Part shown: positions 31,225 through 41,131 of the stretch, piece by piece
Numbering within the stretch: position 1 is the first letter of the stretch
How the letters are laid out: the number at the start of each line of letters is the position of its first letter
NCBI RefSeq assembly: GCF_006546775.1
Contig: NZ_VICE01000142.1
Location: forward strand, 1-41,284
Direction: 5' to 3'
From: Marilutibacter aestuarii
GTDB taxonomy: Bacteria > Pseudomonadota > Gammaproteobacteria > Xanthomonadales > Xanthomonadaceae
Length of the DNA: 41,284 bases
Position numbers and translations under genes: made by a program
The notes under the pieces: generated by a model
What the model saw: only the letters and a program-made list of their open reading frames with translations
Told to the model about the DNA's origin: nothing
Databases searched by the model: none

Positions 31225-32796
31225 ATGGGCAGGAACGCAATTCGTCTCGCATGCGCCGTCGTGCTGCTGTGCGCCTCGGCGCTGGCCGCGGCCGGCGACT
31301 TCAGCAAGCGCTATGCCAGCATCCAGAGCTTCGACGGCACCGCGCTGGGCGCACTGGTGCTGGTGCCCGAGGGCGAGGGGCCCTTCCCGTTGCTGGTGAT
31401 GCCGGCCAGCTGGGCGCTGCCGAACCTGGAATACCTGGGCCGCGCCCGCCAGCTGGCCGCCGATGGCTACGTCGTGGTCAGCTACACCTCGCGCGGGTTC
31501 TGGGATTCGGCCGGGCGCATCGACATCGCCGGCCCGGCGACGGTGGAGGACGTCAGCGCCGTGATCGACTGGGCGCTGGCGAACACGCCGGCGGACCCGG
31601 CGGCGATCGGCGCCTCGGGCATCTCCTACGGCGCCGGCACCAGTTTGCTCGCCGCCGGCCGCGACCCGCGGATCAAGGCGGTGGCGGCGCTGAGCGGCTG
31701 GTCCGACCTCGAGGCCTCGCTGTACGCCAATCGCACGGTCAGCCAGCAGGGCGTGGGCCTGCTGGTCGCCGCGGGCGCGCTCACCGGCCGGCCCGGACCC
31801 GAGCTGACGGCGATCACCGCGCGCGTGCTGCTGGGCGACTACGACGGCGCGGTCCAGGGCATGTTGCCGGTCGCGCCCGAGCGTGGCGCCCGCAGCGAGC
31901 TGGCGCAGATCAACCTCAACGGCACGGCCGTCCTGCTGGGCAATGCCTTCAACGACGGCCTGTTCCCGCCCAATCCGCTGGTGGACTTCTTCAACGGACT
32001 GACCGGCCCAAGCCAGTTGATCCTCAGCCAGGGCGACCACGCCACTGCCGAGCTGCCCGGTGCGCTGGGCCTGCCCAACGAACTCTACGACGCCGCCACG
32101 CGCTGGTTCGACCACCACCTGCGTGGACGCGACAACGGCGTGCCGGCCGAGCCCCGGGTGCGCATGGCGACCCTCTCCGGCGACTGGCAGGCCTTCGGCG
32201 ACTGGGCCGCGGTGCAGGCAGGCGCGACCGAGTATGGACTCTCGCGCCCCGGTGGTTTCGTGCCCACCGGTGGCCTGACCGGCACGGCGAACAGCGGCTG
32301 GACGCATCGCATCGGCACCGGGCTGCCCACCCTGGCCGATTCGGGCGTGGTACTGGTGTCGGGCCTGCTGCAGGGGCTCGGGCTGCCGGCGACCGCGTCG
32401 ATCCCGCTGGTGTCGCGCGTCGGCGCAGCGGTCTGGGTGGGGTCCGCAATGCCGGCGACGCGCACGCTCGTGGGCGCGCCAGAGCTGCGCATCACGGTCA
32501 CCCCCAGCCAGTCGTCGCTGAGCCTGTTCGCCTACCTGTACCGCATGGACCGCTGGGGCACCGGGCACCTGCTCAGCCACACGCCGTATTCGCTGCGCGG
32601 CGTGGCGCCGGGCGTGGCCACGCCGGTGGACATCGCGCTGGAAGCCACCGCAGCGGAGATCCGTGCCGGCGAGCGCCTGGTGCTGGTGATCGACACCACC
32701 GATCCGCGTTATGCCGACGCGACCTCGCTCGGTGGCACGGTCGCGTTCTCGTCGCCGGCCTCGCGACCGGCACGGCTGCGCGTCGCGCTCAAATAG
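31225..32796 (+). CDS. Secreted alpha/beta hydrolase (CocE/X-Pro peptidase S15 type)
   Basis: A 523-aa exported protein. Signal peptide at about 1-24 (hydrophobic core AVVLLCASALAA, cleavage near AAG|DF). The hydrolase domain has the nucleophile Ser134 in GISYG, Asp244 in NAFNDGLFPP and His272 in QGDHATAE. The C-terminal part (about 385-523) looks like the X-Pro dipeptidyl-peptidase beta-sandwich, ending FSSPASRPARLRVALK. The substrate could be a peptide, ester or acyl compound. GGGAGGG lies about 7 nt before the ATG and fixes the start. It could be a type II secretion client or stay in the periplasm. Confidence 0.82.
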   Translation: MGRNAIRLACAVVLLCASALAAAGDFSKRYASIQSFDGTALGALVLVPEGEGPFPLLVMPASWALPNLEYLGRARQLAADGYVVVSYTSRGFWDSAGRIDIAGPATVEDVSAVIDWALANTPADPAAIGASGISYGAGTSLLAAGRDPRIKAVAALSGWSDLEASLYANRTVSQQGVGLLVAAGALTGRPGPELTAITARVLLGDYDGAVQGMLPVAPERGARSELAQINLNGTAVLLGNAFNDGLFPPNPLVDFFNGLTGPSQLILSQGDHATAELPGALGLPNELYDAATRWFDHHLRGRDNGVPAEPRVRMATLSGDWQAFGDWAAVQAGATEYGLSRPGGFVPTGGLTGTANSGWTHRIGTGLPTLADSGVVLVSGLLQGLGLPATASIPLVSRVGAAVWVGSAMPATRTLVGAPELRITVTPSQSSLSLFAYLYRMDRWGTGHLLSHTPYSLRGVAPGVATPVDIALEATAAEIRAGERLVLVIDTTDPRYADATSLGGTVAFSSPASRPARLRVALK

Positions 32797-32850
32797 GCCA
32801 TGCGTCGCGGCACGCGCCATCGCGGCGCGCCCGCGACGCGCCCTGCAACT

Positions 32851-32865
32851 TGAACGTGGCGTTCA
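32851..32865. promoter_or_regulatory. Inverted repeat upstream of the amidohydrolase operon
   Basis: TGAACG, TGG, CGTTCA: a perfect 6-bp inverted repeat lying 44 bp before the first ATG of the three-gene operon and 55 bp after the hydrolase stop. It is a plausible operator. No confident -35/-10 pair can be placed around it. Confidence 0.35.
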
Positions 32866-32908
32866 GTTGCTCACGGACTCCTCATACCCCCGGTGGAAGC
32901 ATCGGGGC

Positions 32909-33757
32909 ATGGATGCCACTGCCAACCCCACACCGTTCTTCACCGTGGCCGAGCGGCTCGTCCTCGACGCGCCGGACGACGACTGGGACCTGGTCCTGGG
33001 CGACGGGCCCATCGTCGCCACCGCGATCCACGATGGCCACGCCATGCGTCCCTCCCTCGCTGCGCATCTCGCGGTCGACGATACCGGCCGCCGGCGCGAG
33101 GAGGACCCGCTGACCGGCGCGCTGGTCGAGGCCGGCGACGTGAGGCTGCGGGTGCGCGCCTCGCGCTTCCAGGTCGACCTCAACCGTCCGCGCGACCTGG
33201 CCCTGTCGACCGACCCCGCCGATACCTGGGGGCTGAAGGTCTGGAAGGGCCCGCTGCCGCCCGGCGAACTGGCGACCTCGCTCGCGGCGCACGATCGCTT
33301 CTACGCGATGATGGCCGAGCTGATGGATCGCTTGATCGCGCGCTGGGGCTGCGTGCTCCTGCTCGACATCCACAGCTACAACCACCGCCGCGACGGTGCC
33401 GGGGCGCCGCCGGCACCTTCGGGCGACAACCCCGACATCGACGTCGGCGCCACCACGCTGGACCGCAGCCGCTGGGGCCACGCCGTCGAACGCCTGGTGC
33501 AGGTCCTGCGCGAACGCCCGGCCGCGGGACGCACGCTCGACGTGCGCGAGAACGTGCGCTACGACGGCGGCGGGCACTTCCCCGAATGGCTTCATGCCGC
33601 CTATGGCGACAAGGTCTGCGCCGTGTCGCTCGAGTACAAGAAGTTCTACATGGACGAGTGGACCGCCCGGGCCGACATCGCGGTGCTCGAAGACCTGCGC
33701 CGTGGACTGGCGGCCGCGGTCGACGCCGTCCGCGGGGAGTTCCACGCATGCCGGTGA
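32909..33757 (+). CDS. N-formylglutamate amidohydrolase family protein
   Basis: A 282-aa zinc amidohydrolase of the FGase (HutG-type) family, relatives of which cleave N-formylglutamate or related N-acyl bonds. Features: HDGH at 41-44, QVDLNRPRD, LLDIHSYNHRR (Asp153, His155), a GGGHFPEW segment, and the late acidic motif SLEYKKFYMDEW. No histidine-degradation genes are nearby, so its substrate is probably not formylglutamate from the hut pathway. Its last 10 bp overlap the next gene, and the set of three overlapping genes suggests a shared pathway. Confidence 0.85.
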   Translation: MDATANPTPFFTVAERLVLDAPDDDWDLVLGDGPIVATAIHDGHAMRPSLAAHLAVDDTGRRREEDPLTGALVEAGDVRLRVRASRFQVDLNRPRDLALSTDPADTWGLKVWKGPLPPGELATSLAAHDRFYAMMAELMDRLIARWGCVLLLDIHSYNHRRDGAGAPPAPSGDNPDIDVGATTLDRSRWGHAVERLVQVLRERPAAGRTLDVRENVRYDGGGHFPEWLHAAYGDKVCAVSLEYKKFYMDEWTARADIAVLEDLRRGLAAAVDAVRGEFHACR

Positions 33758-34947
33758 GCGCGATGCATGCCCCGCCGCGCGCGCTGCCCCCGGTGGCCGC
33801 GCGGGTCGATGCCGCCCTGGTCGAGCTCGACCGCCAGATCGACTGGCTGCTGGCGCTCTCGCCGATCGACAACGACGGCGCGTGGGAGGCATTCGAGGCC
33901 AGCGGTTTCCGCCAGGCGCCACCGCTGCGTTACATCGACCTGGAGATCGACCTCGACGAGGCGCGCCAGCGCCTGGACGCGCTGCCCCTGGACGACATCG
34001 AGTCGCCCCTGCTGTCGGGCCTGCTCAGCGAGAAGCAGCGCGAACTGGAACGGCACCTGCAGCTCGTGCGACTGCGCGGCACGGAGGGCTTCGTCAACGC
34101 CAGCCTCGACCTGTTCGGCGGCGTCGATGCCGGTCTGCGCGCGCTGGCCGACGAGATCCTCGCGAGCGTGCCGCATGGCGCGCCCCTGGTCGCCGACGCC
34201 GGCATCGACGAGGTCGTCGAAGCGGTCGAGGCCGAGCTGGAGTGGTACCGCGGCCGGGCCGGGGATTTCAAGGCCGACGTGGTCGTGGACACTGACATCG
34301 GCTCGATGATGATGGTCTCGCACGGCACCTTCTACGTCGACGGCGGGATCCGCCTGCCGCGCGCGCGCGTGCAGCCGCTGGTGCAGCACGAGATCGGCAC
34401 GCACGTCGTCACCCGTTACAACGGCGGCCACCAGCCGCTGCGCCAGCTCGAGGTGGGCCTGGCCCACTACGACGCCCTCCAGGAAGGCCTGGGCGTGCTC
34501 GCCGAGTACCTCGCCGGCTACCTGCCCGGCGACCGCCTGCGCGTGCTCGCCGCGCGCGTGGTGGCGGTCGACATGGCCGTCGCCGGCGAGGGCATCCCGG
34601 AGATCCACGCCTGCCTGCGCGAAACCCATGGCCTGCCGACCAACGAGGCCTTCGACATCGCGGTGCGCGCGCTGCGCGGCGGCGGCCTGACCAAGGACGC
34701 CGTCTACCTCAGTGGCCTGCGCGACCTGCTCGACCACCTCCACGCCGGTGGCGAGCTTGGACCTTTGCTTCGCGGCAAGTTCGCCCTCTCGCACCTGCCC
34801 GTCGTCGATCGGCTGGAAGAGGAGGGCTGGGCGGTGCCGCCGGCGCTGATGCCTCGCTATGCCCACGACGACGGCTTCGCCGATCGCCTGCAATGCTGCC
34901 GTGACACCGGCATCGCCGACTTCTTCCACATGGAACCACGCGCATGA
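33748..34947 (+). CDS. QEGLA-motif metallopeptidase-like protein (DUF1704, MATCAP-related)
   Basis: A 399-aa soluble protein with an HExxxH motif, HEIGTH at 214-219 (His214, Glu215, His219), and a downstream acidic ligand Glu246 in QEGLG. This arrangement matches DUF1704. The eukaryotic members (MATCAP) are metallo-carboxypeptidases that remove the C-terminal tyrosine of tubulin. Bacterial copies are usually named after flavohaemoglobin expression and the QEGLA motif, with no defined chemistry. The N-terminal 130 residues are helical and charged. An ATG at 33763 is an alternative start. It overlaps both neighbours (10 bp and ATGA). Confidence 0.85.
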   Translation: MPVSAMHAPPRALPPVAARVDAALVELDRQIDWLLALSPIDNDGAWEAFEASGFRQAPPLRYIDLEIDLDEARQRLDALPLDDIESPLLSGLLSEKQRELERHLQLVRLRGTEGFVNASLDLFGGVDAGLRALADEILASVPHGAPLVADAGIDEVVEAVEAELEWYRGRAGDFKADVVVDTDIGSMMMVSHGTFYVDGGIRLPRARVQPLVQHEIGTHVVTRYNGGHQPLRQLEVGLAHYDALQEGLGVLAEYLAGYLPGDRLRVLAARVVAVDMAVAGEGIPEIHACLRETHGLPTNEAFDIAVRALRGGGLTKDAVYLSGLRDLLDHLHAGGELGPLLRGKFALSHLPVVDRLEEEGWAVPPALMPRYAHDDGFADRLQCCRDTGIADFFHMEPRA

Positions 34948-36014
34948 ACGAACGCACCGCCTCGCCGATCAAGCTGGGCTTCGTCATCAACGACATCGCG
35001 ACCGAAAAGGACAACTTCACCACGATCCGCCTGGCCCGTCGCGCGATCGCGCGCGGCCACGAGGTCGCGTTGATCGGGCTGGGCGGCTTCATCTACGACA
35101 GCAACGGCGTCATCCGCGCGCATGCCCACCGCCCGCGTGGCACCGGCTATGCCGACGATGCCGAGCTGCTGGCCGACCTGCAGGCCGACGACGCCCGGAT
35201 CGAGCGCATCTCGGTCGAGGCGCTGGACGTGCTCATGCTGCGCAGCGATCCGGCCGACGAAGTCAACGAGCGGCCGTGGGCGCCCAACAGCGGGCTGCTG
35301 TTCGCCCAGCTCGCGGCGCTCAAGCACGTGATCGTGCTCAACGATCCCACCCACCTGACCGATGCCTCCAACAAGACCTATTTCCAGCACTTCCCCGAGG
35401 AAGTGCGGCCGGTCACCTGCATCACCCTCGACGCGGAGGAGATCAAGGCCTTCATCGCCGCGCACGACGGCCATGGCGTGATCAAGCCGCTGCAGGGCTC
35501 GGGCGGGCAGAGCGTGTTCGTGGTGACGCCCGACAGCGGCGGCAACCTCAACCAGATGATCGACGCCGTCACCCGCGACGGCTACGCCATCGTCCAGGAA
35601 TACCTGCCGCGCGCGGTCGACGGCGACCTGCGCCTGCTGACGCTCAATGGCCGGCCCCTGGAAGTGGAGGGCACGTACGCCTGCATCCGTCGCTACAACG
35701 ACAGCGGGGACGCCCGCAGCAACATCAGCGCCGGCGGCAAGTACGAGATGGCGGTGCCTGACGAGGATGCCCTGCGCATCGCCAGCATCGTCGCCCCCAA
35801 GCTCATGCGCGACGGCATGTACTTCGCCGGCCTGGACATCGTCGGCGACAAGATGATGGAGATCAACGTCGATACGCCCGGCGGGATCAACATGGCCGAC
35901 GACCTCACCGGCCTTGACTTCAGCGGGCACATCATCGCCGACCTCGAGCGCAAGGTCGCCATGCGCGACCACTACAACCGCACGCTCAGCAACACCGAAC
36001 TGGCAATGATGTAG
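34944..36014 (+). CDS. ATP-grasp ligase, glutathione-synthetase-like
   Basis: A 356-aa cytoplasmic ligase. The N-terminal substrate domain has KLGFVINDIATEKDNFTT. The central lid has VIKPLQGSGGQSVFVV, and the ATP-grasp core has AIVQEYLPRAVDGDLRLL, then GLDIVG and MEINVDTPGGIN, with the Glu-Ile-Asn metal site typical of glutathione synthetase. Such enzymes join a carboxylate to an amine using ATP. No gamma-glutamylcysteine ligase is nearby and the operon partners differ from gsh loci, so glutathione synthesis is uncertain. It starts inside the stop of the peptidase gene and ends 9 bp before the convergent glycosylase gene. Confidence 0.85.
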   Translation: MNERTASPIKLGFVINDIATEKDNFTTIRLARRAIARGHEVALIGLGGFIYDSNGVIRAHAHRPRGTGYADDAELLADLQADDARIERISVEALDVLMLRSDPADEVNERPWAPNSGLLFAQLAALKHVIVLNDPTHLTDASNKTYFQHFPEEVRPVTCITLDAEEIKAFIAAHDGHGVIKPLQGSGGQSVFVVTPDSGGNLNQMIDAVTRDGYAIVQEYLPRAVDGDLRLLTLNGRPLEVEGTYACIRRYNDSGDARSNISAGGKYEMAVPDEDALRIASIVAPKLMRDGMYFAGLDIVGDKMMEINVDTPGGINMADDLTGLDFSGHIIADLERKVAMRDHYNRTLSNTELAMM

Positions 36015-36023
36015 GCCGCCGCG

Positions 36024-36614
36024 TCAGTCGCCCAGCGCCGCGCGCACCCGAAGGCGCAACCCGGGCAGGACGTCCTGCTCGAACCAGGGGTTGGCCTTGA
36101 ACCAGGCGACGTTGCGCGGGCTGGGGTGCGGCAACGGCAGTCGGTTCTGCTCCAGGTGCGCACGCCAGTCGCGCACCGTGGCGGTCAGGGTCGCGGCATC
36201 GCGTGTCCCCAGCACATGGGCCTGCGCATGGCGGCCCACCAGCAGGCTCAGGCGCACGTTCGCCAGCAGCGGCAGCAGCCGCGGGTGCCAGGTGGCCCGG
36301 CACTCCGGTCGCGGCGGGGCGTCGCCACCGCTGCGCTTGCCCGGATAGCAGAAGCCCATCGGCACGAGGGCGACCCGATCGGCATCGTAGAACGTGGCGC
36401 TGTCGAGCCCGAGCCACTCGCGCAGGCGCCGGCCGCTGGCATCGTCCCAGGGAATGCCACTGGCATGCACGCGCGCGCCCGGCGCCTGGCCGATGACCAG
36501 CACGCGCGCGCGGCGGCTCGCCTGCACCACCGGGCGCGGCCCGAGCGGCAACACCGCCGCGCACTGCGTGCAGGCGCGGATCTCGCACAGCAGGGCGGGC
36601 AGGGCGTCGGCCAC
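36024..36614 (-). CDS. Uracil-DNA glycosylase superfamily protein, probable Fe-S type
   Basis: A 196-aa protein of the UDG superfamily, starting at GTG. The active-site motif is GQAPG (42-46) followed by GIPWDDASGRRLREWL, and the C-terminal motif is PLPHPSPRN. Cys15 and Cys18 (ACTQC) together with Cys89 and Cys105 (15 residues between them) match the layout of the four ligands of the [4Fe-4S] cluster in family 4 UDGs. The catalytic specificity (uracil or other base) cannot be read. It lies 3 bp after the oxidase gene on the same strand. Confidence 0.82.
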   Translation of the reverse strand: MADALPALLCEIRACTQCAAVLPLGPRPVVQASRRARVLVIGQAPGARVHASGIPWDDASGRRLREWLGLDSATFYDADRVALVPMGFCYPGKRSGGDAPPRPECRATWHPRLLPLLANVRLSLLVGRHAQAHVLGTRDAATLTATVRDWRAHLEQNRLPLPHPSPRNVAWFKANPWFEQDVLPGLRLRVRAALGD

Positions 36615-40751: not shown

Positions 40752-41102
40752 GGCGGAGTCGGCCAGGCAGTCGCGTCATGCAATGCATGCCGAGGAAAGT
40801 CCGGGCTCCACAGGGCACGGTGCCAGGTAACGCCTGGGCGGCGCGAGCCGACGGAAAGTGCAACAGAGAGTAGACCGCCGATGGCCCGCGAGGGCACAGG
40901 CAAGGGTGAAACGGTGCGGTAAGAGCGCACCGCGAGTCTGGCAACAGACCGGCACGGCAAACCCCACCGGGAGCAAGACCAAATAGGGAGACGATGCCGC
41001 GGCCCGCGGTGTCTCCGGGTAGGTTGCTCGAGCGTATCGGCGACGATGCGCCTAGAGGAATGACTGTCCACGACAGAACCCGGCTTATCGGCCGGCTCCG
41101 CC
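40752..41102 (+). ncRNA. rnpB: RNase P RNA, bacterial type A
   Basis: Catalytic RNA that matures the 5' ends of tRNAs. About 351 nt. The 5' end GGCGGAGtCGGCC pairs with the 3' end GGCCGGCTCCGCC to form P1, which sets both boundaries. Conserved core pieces are GAGGAAAGTCCGGGCTCC (40791-40808), ACAGAGAGTAGACCGCCGA, GGGTGAAACGGTGCGGTAAGAG, CAAACCCCACCGGGAGCAAG, AGAGGAATGACTGTCC and ACAGAACCCGGCTTATCGG. The long helices between them fit type A. Confidence 0.96.
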
Positions 41103-41131
41103 GCCTTTCTGGCTCAGTGAGCCAGAAAGGC
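41103..41131 (+). terminator. Long palindrome after rnpB
   Basis: GCCTTTCTGGCTCA (41103-41116) and TGAGCCAGAAAGGC (41118-41131) form a 14-bp perfect stem directly after the RNase P RNA. It could act as its terminator or 3' processing barrier, but no T-run follows. It may equally be a dispersed palindromic repeat. Confidence 0.45.

Follow-up and report, generated by a model that had tools for sequence, protein, structure and literature searches.

Enzymes of the GshB/RimK type use ATP to activate a carboxylate, which they then link to an amine, and the family of N-formylglutamate amidohydrolase-like proteins (FGase) cleaves an acyl-glutamate bond. TTL, the ligase of the tubulin TTL/MATCAP cycle, is an ATP-grasp ligase. 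The NAGGN osmolyte operon combines an ATP-grasp ligase with a peptidase and makes a glutamine dipeptide; its families differ from those described here. The MATCAP family removes C-terminal residues; the activity of TMCP1 is described in the available part of PMC10499314. The present analysis concerns three genes at 32909-36014 of a 41,284-nucleotide stretch of Marilutibacter aestuarii (contig NZ_VICE01000142.1; this whole stretch is called the window), which encode an FGase-family protein, a MATCAP/DUF1704 metallopeptidase and a GshB-like ATP-grasp ligase. We judge the chances about even that a single acyl-amino-acid bond in an acidic peptide or tail is formed by the ligase and cleaved by FGase, or is handled by the two in successive steps, and that MATCAP trims this peptide or tail. 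No description of the trio was recognised in the open-access literature (subscription papers and preprints lay outside the search), and the words formylglutamate, glutathione, carboxypeptidase, QEGLA and MATCAP are absent from the graspetide survey PMC8939145.

In a fused lineage, retention of the FGase site goes with presence of the ligase

In a lineage that includes Photobacterium and some Vibrio, a single protein joins FGase directly to MATCAP, with the ligase gene immediately upstream. The family holding both genera, as inferred from the matching records, showed a match to the fused protein in 78 of 197 genomes. Seventy loci were examined: 66 were fetched from the 82 match rows, and five had been found before, two of them duplicates. 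Two loci occur twice (L138 = L182 and L139 = L147), hence 45 ligase-bearing rows stand for 44 distinct ones. Fused open reading frames (ORFs) longer than 600 amino acids (aa) were taken for the test of the FGase site.

All 15 FGase key residues were as in the window protein in every fused gene with an adjacent ligase (45/45, 44 distinct). Among the six distinct readable fused genes of genomes without the ligase, H155 was changed to R, Y or T in 6/6 and D66 was lost in 5/6. The FGase part of a seventh ligase-free gene (L183) was too diverged for a sure alignment and its site was gone, and the DxHSYN histidine (H155) was lost in 7/7 distinct fused genes of ligase-free genomes. A genome-wide search returned one GshB-like match in each of those seven genomes, at 119-141 bits compared with 525-695 for the module type; this weaker match is taken to be the canonical GshB. 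Two loci stand outside the counts: L190 has the ligase and an FGase-MATCAP frame broken by TGA, and L184, counted in neither class, keeps H155 in its readable part (partly masked) with the ligase about 53 kb away.

The MATCAP motif was intact in 70/70 ORFs of this set. Of the 15 genes encoding MATCAP only, 12 belong to ligase-free genomes; the genomes of the other three also carry a fused locus next to the ligase. On a MATCAP tree (62 chosen rows, quick method, two stand-alone rows as outgroup, L184 labelled as having the ligase), the ligase-free fused genes need at least three changes, and five by parsimony. Because the FGase site decays without the ligase while the MATCAP motif stays, FGase is coupled to the ligase, its site being kept in this lineage only where the ligase is present, and MATCAP is separable, persisting without ligase and FGase. 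Such coupling predicts that the FGase substrate is the product of the ligase or its precursor. The original prediction had made MATCAP and the ligase the central pair, and this has to be revised: the ligase is tied more closely to FGase, and MATCAP can remain when the ligase is gone.

Distribution and behaviour of the three genes as a unit

Scanning of genome contigs with the ligase alignment gave at least 557 confirmed relatives, the best 80 of which are the 80 loci referred to below. All three genes were together in 68/80 loci, with the plain order FGase-MATCAP-ligase in 62/80. MATCAP and ligase without FGase were found in 5/80 loci, three of these truncated where the contig stops, and FGase with two ligases in 1/80; in 1/80 the ligase stood alone at a contig end, and FGase and MATCAP end another contig of that genome. 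According to the record labels, which may err as many of the genomes are metagenome-assembled, the full-trio loci belong to seven phyla (Pseudomonadota, Planctomycetota, Poribacteria, Actinomycetota, Bacteroidota, Acidobacteriota and Myxococcales). Plasmid records, mostly of large rhizobial plasmids, were matched by the ligase (123 at E 1e-40) and by MATCAP (116 at E 1e-5); three of the four rhizobial plasmid loci inspected had the FGase-MATCAP-ligase order and one a lone ligase.

Since the contig scan was seeded with module ligases, two samples drawn regardless of the module were used (143 class genomes and 249 phylum genomes), with the window genome, present in both, excluded. The class sample held six other genomes with the ligase (355-468 bits; next best 244), in 6/6 beside MATCAP and FGase. 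Eight ligase copies in six other genomes were found in the phylum sample; 7/8 adjoin MATCAP, and the eighth begins at base 39 of its contig. Both samples combined, 13/14 ligase copies adjoin MATCAP. A sample from the phylum of a Pirellulaceae genome showed a ligase match in 5/119 genomes, two of them much weaker. Overall, the module is uncommon, with a patchy distribution that spans a wide range of taxa.

Co-divergence was analysed for 59 of the 62 plain-order loci, leaving out L075, L082 and L083 with their split frames. Protein distances among the trio were correlated at 0.91-0.96 (best of 1000 permutations, 0.26), and 22-26 of the 44 supported splits per gene tree were common to the trees. 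The trio is apparently a conserved unit that moves between genomes as a whole. No fourth gene conserved across phyla stood out when 60/80 loci were clustered and eight neighbours scanned against Pfam; recurring neighbours were mainly lineage-bound, as in Poribacteria or in an actinobacterial set.

Two other contexts were rejected. As to viral origin, viral contigs scanned with the window ligase yielded no relative, and the four matches to the ligase in a phage collection were partial (63-69% of the query), three being annotated as glutathione synthase or synthetase. As to anti-phage defence, PADLOC gave no match at E 0.001 for the three window proteins and the long MATCAP of L101.

Protein families and layout of the locus

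The window FGase matched PF05013 at 84.1 bits (cut-off 28.9). Its motifs IHDGH (H41), EEDP (E65, D66), DIHSYN (D153, H155) and EYKK (E242) would, by family, form a zinc site. Residue conservation was counted on alignments leaving out fragments (FGase below 215 aa, MATCAP and ligase below 300 aa); these counts were preferred to a stricter regular expression, which passed 65/80 MATCAP and 48/76 FGase ORFs, fragments included. The three-gene loci agree with the fused lineage, all 15 key residues being kept in 70/71 FGase relatives; the exception is one S-to-T change. The predicted structure (mean predicted local distance difference test score, pLDDT, 89.4) matched 2q7s best (E 2.2e-13, TM 0.71) and also 2odf, with much weaker matches to DapE, M14 carboxypeptidases, poly-gamma-glutamate hydrolase (E 1.7e-3) and CCP5 (E 6.1e-3). 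A role as the HutG N-formylglutamate deformylase of histidine use was ruled out, the score against TIGR02017 reaching only 20 of 278.75 bits.

The window MATCAP matched PF08014 at 249.1 bits (cut-off 27). In the alignment, its metal motif (HExxxH plus a downstream Glu) falls on H212, E213, H217 and E244, and HE...H and QE were intact in 71/71 relatives. Against the QEGLA equivalog TIGR02421, which accepts module as well as stand-alone peptidases, the window protein scored below the cut-off (271.4 of 338.65) and the long-form relative L101 above it (349.6). Long forms (about 620-690 aa) are common among relatives, and their N-terminal ~260 residues resemble a degenerate FGase in profile comparison (93.4% probability, E 2.4e-7, 131 columns). 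The match of the long-form model to FGase 2q7s was weak (E 3.5e-3, rank 8, among MTA-nucleosidase-like folds), and by inspection the FGase motifs are not present in this domain. The window protein is a short form without the N-terminal pseudo-FGase domain. Human MATCAP 7z5g was the top structural match of the long form L101 (Poribacteria-labelled; mean pLDDT 88.1; E 5.7e-9), and profile alignment showed the HEIGTH, EGLA and KD.VYL.G blocks to be common to bacterial MATCAP and the human protein. FGase and MATCAP are physically linked repeatedly, by fusion and by the fused pseudo-FGase, which suggests that they work side by side. A second, stand-alone MATCAP/QEGLA gene is present in the window's genome (contig C3:369-1460, L001); the ORF beside it may encode an rsgA-type GTPase.

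The window ligase matched PF02955 (GSH-S_ATP) at 147.4 bits (cut-off 23), and 12 conserved residues were kept in 91/91 ligase relatives. Against the PRK12458-type family NF009110, it scored 379.4 of 408, and the module relatives L101 (479.1) and L139 (487.8) were above the cut-off. It was far under the GshB equivalog TIGR01380 (about 164.8 of 299.05 bits), on which a canonical GshB on contig C23 of the same genome scored 456.5. Canonical GshB was above the cut-off in 21/21 relatives, the window genome counted. Neither gamma-glutamylcysteine-ligase family was found in 11/19 genomes with these ligases, most of them of uncertain completeness, five of the 11 being the actinobacterial FGase-ligase genomes without MATCAP discussed below; the window's genome has PF04107, one such family. 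On a tree of 49 ligases, three-gene, fused-lineage and canonical GshB proteins each formed one clade with full support. Because canonical GshB is encoded elsewhere and 11/19 genomes have neither gamma-glutamylcysteine-ligase family, the ligase is not regarded as a glutathione synthetase, and this main role was ruled out on those grounds and on its separate clade. Among the genomes scanned, a set that may omit the window's own, Lysobacter spongiae gave the best match to the ligase, at 98% identity. Two or three ligase copies, 56-78% identical, were found in 6/80 loci, all planctomycete. A gamma-glutamyltranspeptidase and a second FGase-family gene (L105:10166-12474) lie beside a planctomycete FGase-ligase-ligase locus; none of the remaining 79 loci matched this transpeptidase at E 1e-10.

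The original prediction thus stands in its description of the locus. Its three overlapping plus-strand ORFs, set head to tail, have the coordinates it gave, and its family calls (FGase-like, DUF1704/MATCAP and glutathione-synthetase-like ATP-grasp) were upheld by Pfam matches. The HEIGTH motif and downstream Glu that it named were found at residues 212-217 and in QEGL 243-246. It had held that a plain glutathione synthetase together with an inactive peptidase would speak against the idea; the zinc motif is kept in the window protein and its relatives, and the ligase forms a clade of its own beside a canonical GshB. It also proposed structure prediction of active sites; by fold, the FGase model matched FGase structures and, more weakly, M14 carboxypeptidases, and the model of the long MATCAP was closest to human MATCAP.

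The first 10 bases of the MATCAP gene are also the last 10 of the FGase gene, and a four-base overlap (ATGA) joins the MATCAP stop to the ligase start; owing to these overlaps, the trio is probably translated from a single messenger. A scan of 32600-36300 for promoters and terminators gave one promoter-like site inside the MATCAP gene and no terminator, which was uninformative. The flanking genes of the window recur in 1-2/80 loci, though many loci are from Lysobacteraceae, and its CocE and uracil-glycosylase neighbours recur together in L047 only. Rfam at gathering thresholds, run on the whole window, gave RNase P RNA as the sole match and no RNA element at the trio.

Table 1. Coordinates of the features in the window.
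Feature	Position	Strand or location	Details
FGase-family (N-formylglutamate amidohydrolase-like) gene P0001	32909..33757	+	282 aa; PF05013 profile match
MATCAP/DUF1704 metallopeptidase gene P0002	33748..34947	+	Short form; ATG at 33748; PF08014 match
GshB-like ATP-grasp ligase gene P0003	34944..36014	+	356 aa; PRK12458-like group; PF02955 match
HEIGTH codons, MATCAP metal/catalytic motif	34387..34404	+	By alignment; identical HEIGTH in human MATCAP 7z5g
QEGL codons, MATCAP third metal ligand Glu (by analogy)	34480..34491	+	By alignment; EGLA in human MATCAP
CocE/NonD-type S15 hydrolase	31225-32796	Upstream of trio	Same neighbour in 1/80 ligase loci (L047)
RNase P RNA, class A	40755-41103		Rfam

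Proposed activities, rival explanations and known systems

In the reading that we prefer, the ligase would attach an amino acid to the carboxyl of a peptide or tail, and this added residue is most likely acidic, glutamate or a similar one. FGase would act on the same acyl-amino-acid bond, most likely taking the residue off again or, less likely, freeing the group used by the ligase, and MATCAP would cut a C-terminal residue off that substrate or one related to it. An opposing FGase is favoured because N-formylglutamate is a minimal acyl-Glu with the shape expected of a ligase product, and removal of the residue because the fold is distantly common to M14 carboxypeptidases, poly-gamma-glutamate hydrolase and CCP5. 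The presence of two or three ligase copies in some planctomycete loci tips the balance slightly from a protein tail towards a non-ribosomal acidic oligopeptide as the substrate. Operon-linked peptide ligases often perform successive ligations, according to the available part of PMC4431377, which fits these tandem copies. That the genes form an undescribed, horizontally spread system for reversible C-terminal tailing, in which the ligase writes, FGase erases and MATCAP edits, is possible but a good deal more tentative.

Several observations weigh against the preferred reading. FGase and ligase occur with no MATCAP found in the genome in 5/80 loci, all actinobacterial (L106, L117, L119, L121 and L124) and of uncertain completeness, which also undercuts the MATCAP-ligase pairing of the original prediction. 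An Ensifer plasmid carries a lone ligase, and the MATCAP of that strain is on another plasmid. MATCAP stands without an FGase domain and without an adjacent ligase in 15/70 loci of the fused-lineage set. The co-occurrence that the original prediction proposed to map holds as seen from the ligase (68/80 loci; 13/14 sample copies) and fails as seen from MATCAP, 14/21 (class) and 17/23 (phylum) of the MATCAP-bearing genomes being without this ligase. The trees of the three genes disagree on 10-12 of their 44 supported splits. Coupling of FGase to the ligase fits successive as well as opposing steps, FGase has a weak structural resemblance to M14 enzymes, poly-gamma-glutamate hydrolase and CCP5, and the choice of glutamate as the presumed added residue comes from family names and fold. 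The Photobacterium-type ligase is above the NCBI glutathione-synthase cut-off NF003573 (292.4 of 272).

This last score is among the points for a second glutathione synthetase whose helpers degrade glutathione or gamma-glutamyl peptides, as are the GshB superfamily of the ligase, its NCBI family name of glutathione synthetase and the gamma-glutamyltranspeptidase near one planctomycete locus. The canonical GshB found in all 21 relatives, that of the window genome included, and the 11/19 genomes (most of uncertain completeness) with neither gamma-glutamylcysteine-ligase family make such a role very unlikely. Each of the three families is also found apart from the others in some genomes, as would be expected of unrelated enzymes brought together by chance or by a shared promoter. 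This explanation is hardly credible for a set conserved across phyla while its flanks change, and chance adjacency is strongly disfavoured by the FGase-MATCAP fusion and the repeated decay of FGase after ligase loss.

Two further schemes keep the three enzymes in one process. A protein C-terminal cycle, as put forward in the original prediction, would have a host protein gain a residue through the ligase and lose it through MATCAP, FGase or both, much as tubulin is tyrosinated or glutamylated. It has a bacterial precedent in RimK/RimB, which acts on the ribosomal protein RpsF by C-terminal glutamylation (PMC11957791, available part), and is in line with human MATCAP as the best match of the long-form model, with the shared HEIGTH and KD.VYL.G blocks and with the weak matches of the FGase model to CCP5 and M14 carboxypeptidases. 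We consider it unlikely, given the five actinobacterial FGase-ligase genomes in which no MATCAP was found, the persistence of MATCAP without the ligase in the fused-lineage family and the tandem ligases, which fit peptide assembly at least equally. A linear biosynthesis is equally compatible with the FGase-ligase coupling data: FGase would remove a blocking formyl or other acyl group, the ligase would couple the product and MATCAP would trim the final peptide, and FGase does come first in the commonest gene order (62/80 loci). In the fused architecture, however, the ligase comes first, and no acyltransferase or formyl source stood out among the recurring neighbours (eight scanned against Pfam), leaving this route improbable.

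One published data set may bear on the module. In Photobacterium damselae RM-71 at 1% versus 3% NaCl, A0J47_RS17020 (GshB) was up 38.4-fold and the adjacent A0J47_RS17025 (QEGLA) 27.5-fold, as given in the available part of PMC10308900. There the authors treat A0J47_RS17020 as a glutathione synthetase, and RimK is also among the 20 top genes. From the order of the tags and the Photobacterium relatives, these two genes are probably the fused version of the module. Databases name the ligase glutathione synthetase/synthase (NF009110) and the peptidase flavohemoglobin expression-modulating protein (TIGR02421), names that are doubtful as functions of the module proteins. If the preferred reading is true, wrong names are attached to a module whose record labels span seven phyla, a branch of bacterial MATCAP acquires a pathway to work with, and it becomes possible to test in bacteria where the enzymes that edit tubulin tails came from. 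If the C-terminal tailing is true, many bacteria have a counterpart of the enzymes that modify tubulin tails, annotated as glutathione synthetase and flavohemoglobin-modulating protein.

Compared with described proteins, the window FGase shares the PF05013 family with HutG, and an FGase structure (2q7s) is its top structural match, but its score lies far under the HutG equivalog. Stand-alone QEGLA/DUF1704 proteins (TIGR02421), with one copy on contig C3, belong to the same peptidase family as the module MATCAP, whereas on the MATCAP tree two of their rows, set as outgroup, stand apart from every module or fused row. GshB is of the same superfamily as the module ligase, and 1gsa is the solved structure closest to it in sequence; the module ligase differs in its separate clade, in coexisting with a canonical copy and in a few extra residues around RPWA relative to 1gsa. 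With the tubulin TTL/MATCAP (TMCP1/2) cycle, the locus shares a MATCAP-family peptidase with HEIGTH plus Glu and an ATP-grasp ligase partner. It differs in being bacterial, in its GshB-like ligase, in having FGase as the tighter partner and in having no tubulin target. Relative to RimK/RimB, the window ligase is under the RimK cut-off TIGR00768 (55.8 of 143.4 bits), and the hydrolases of the operon, where alone RimB was sought, are FGase and MATCAP, not the retropepsin RimB. As the available part of PMC11957791 describes it, RimK/RimB likewise pairs an ATP-grasp ligase with a hydrolase acting on its product and has a distribution incongruent with host evolution.

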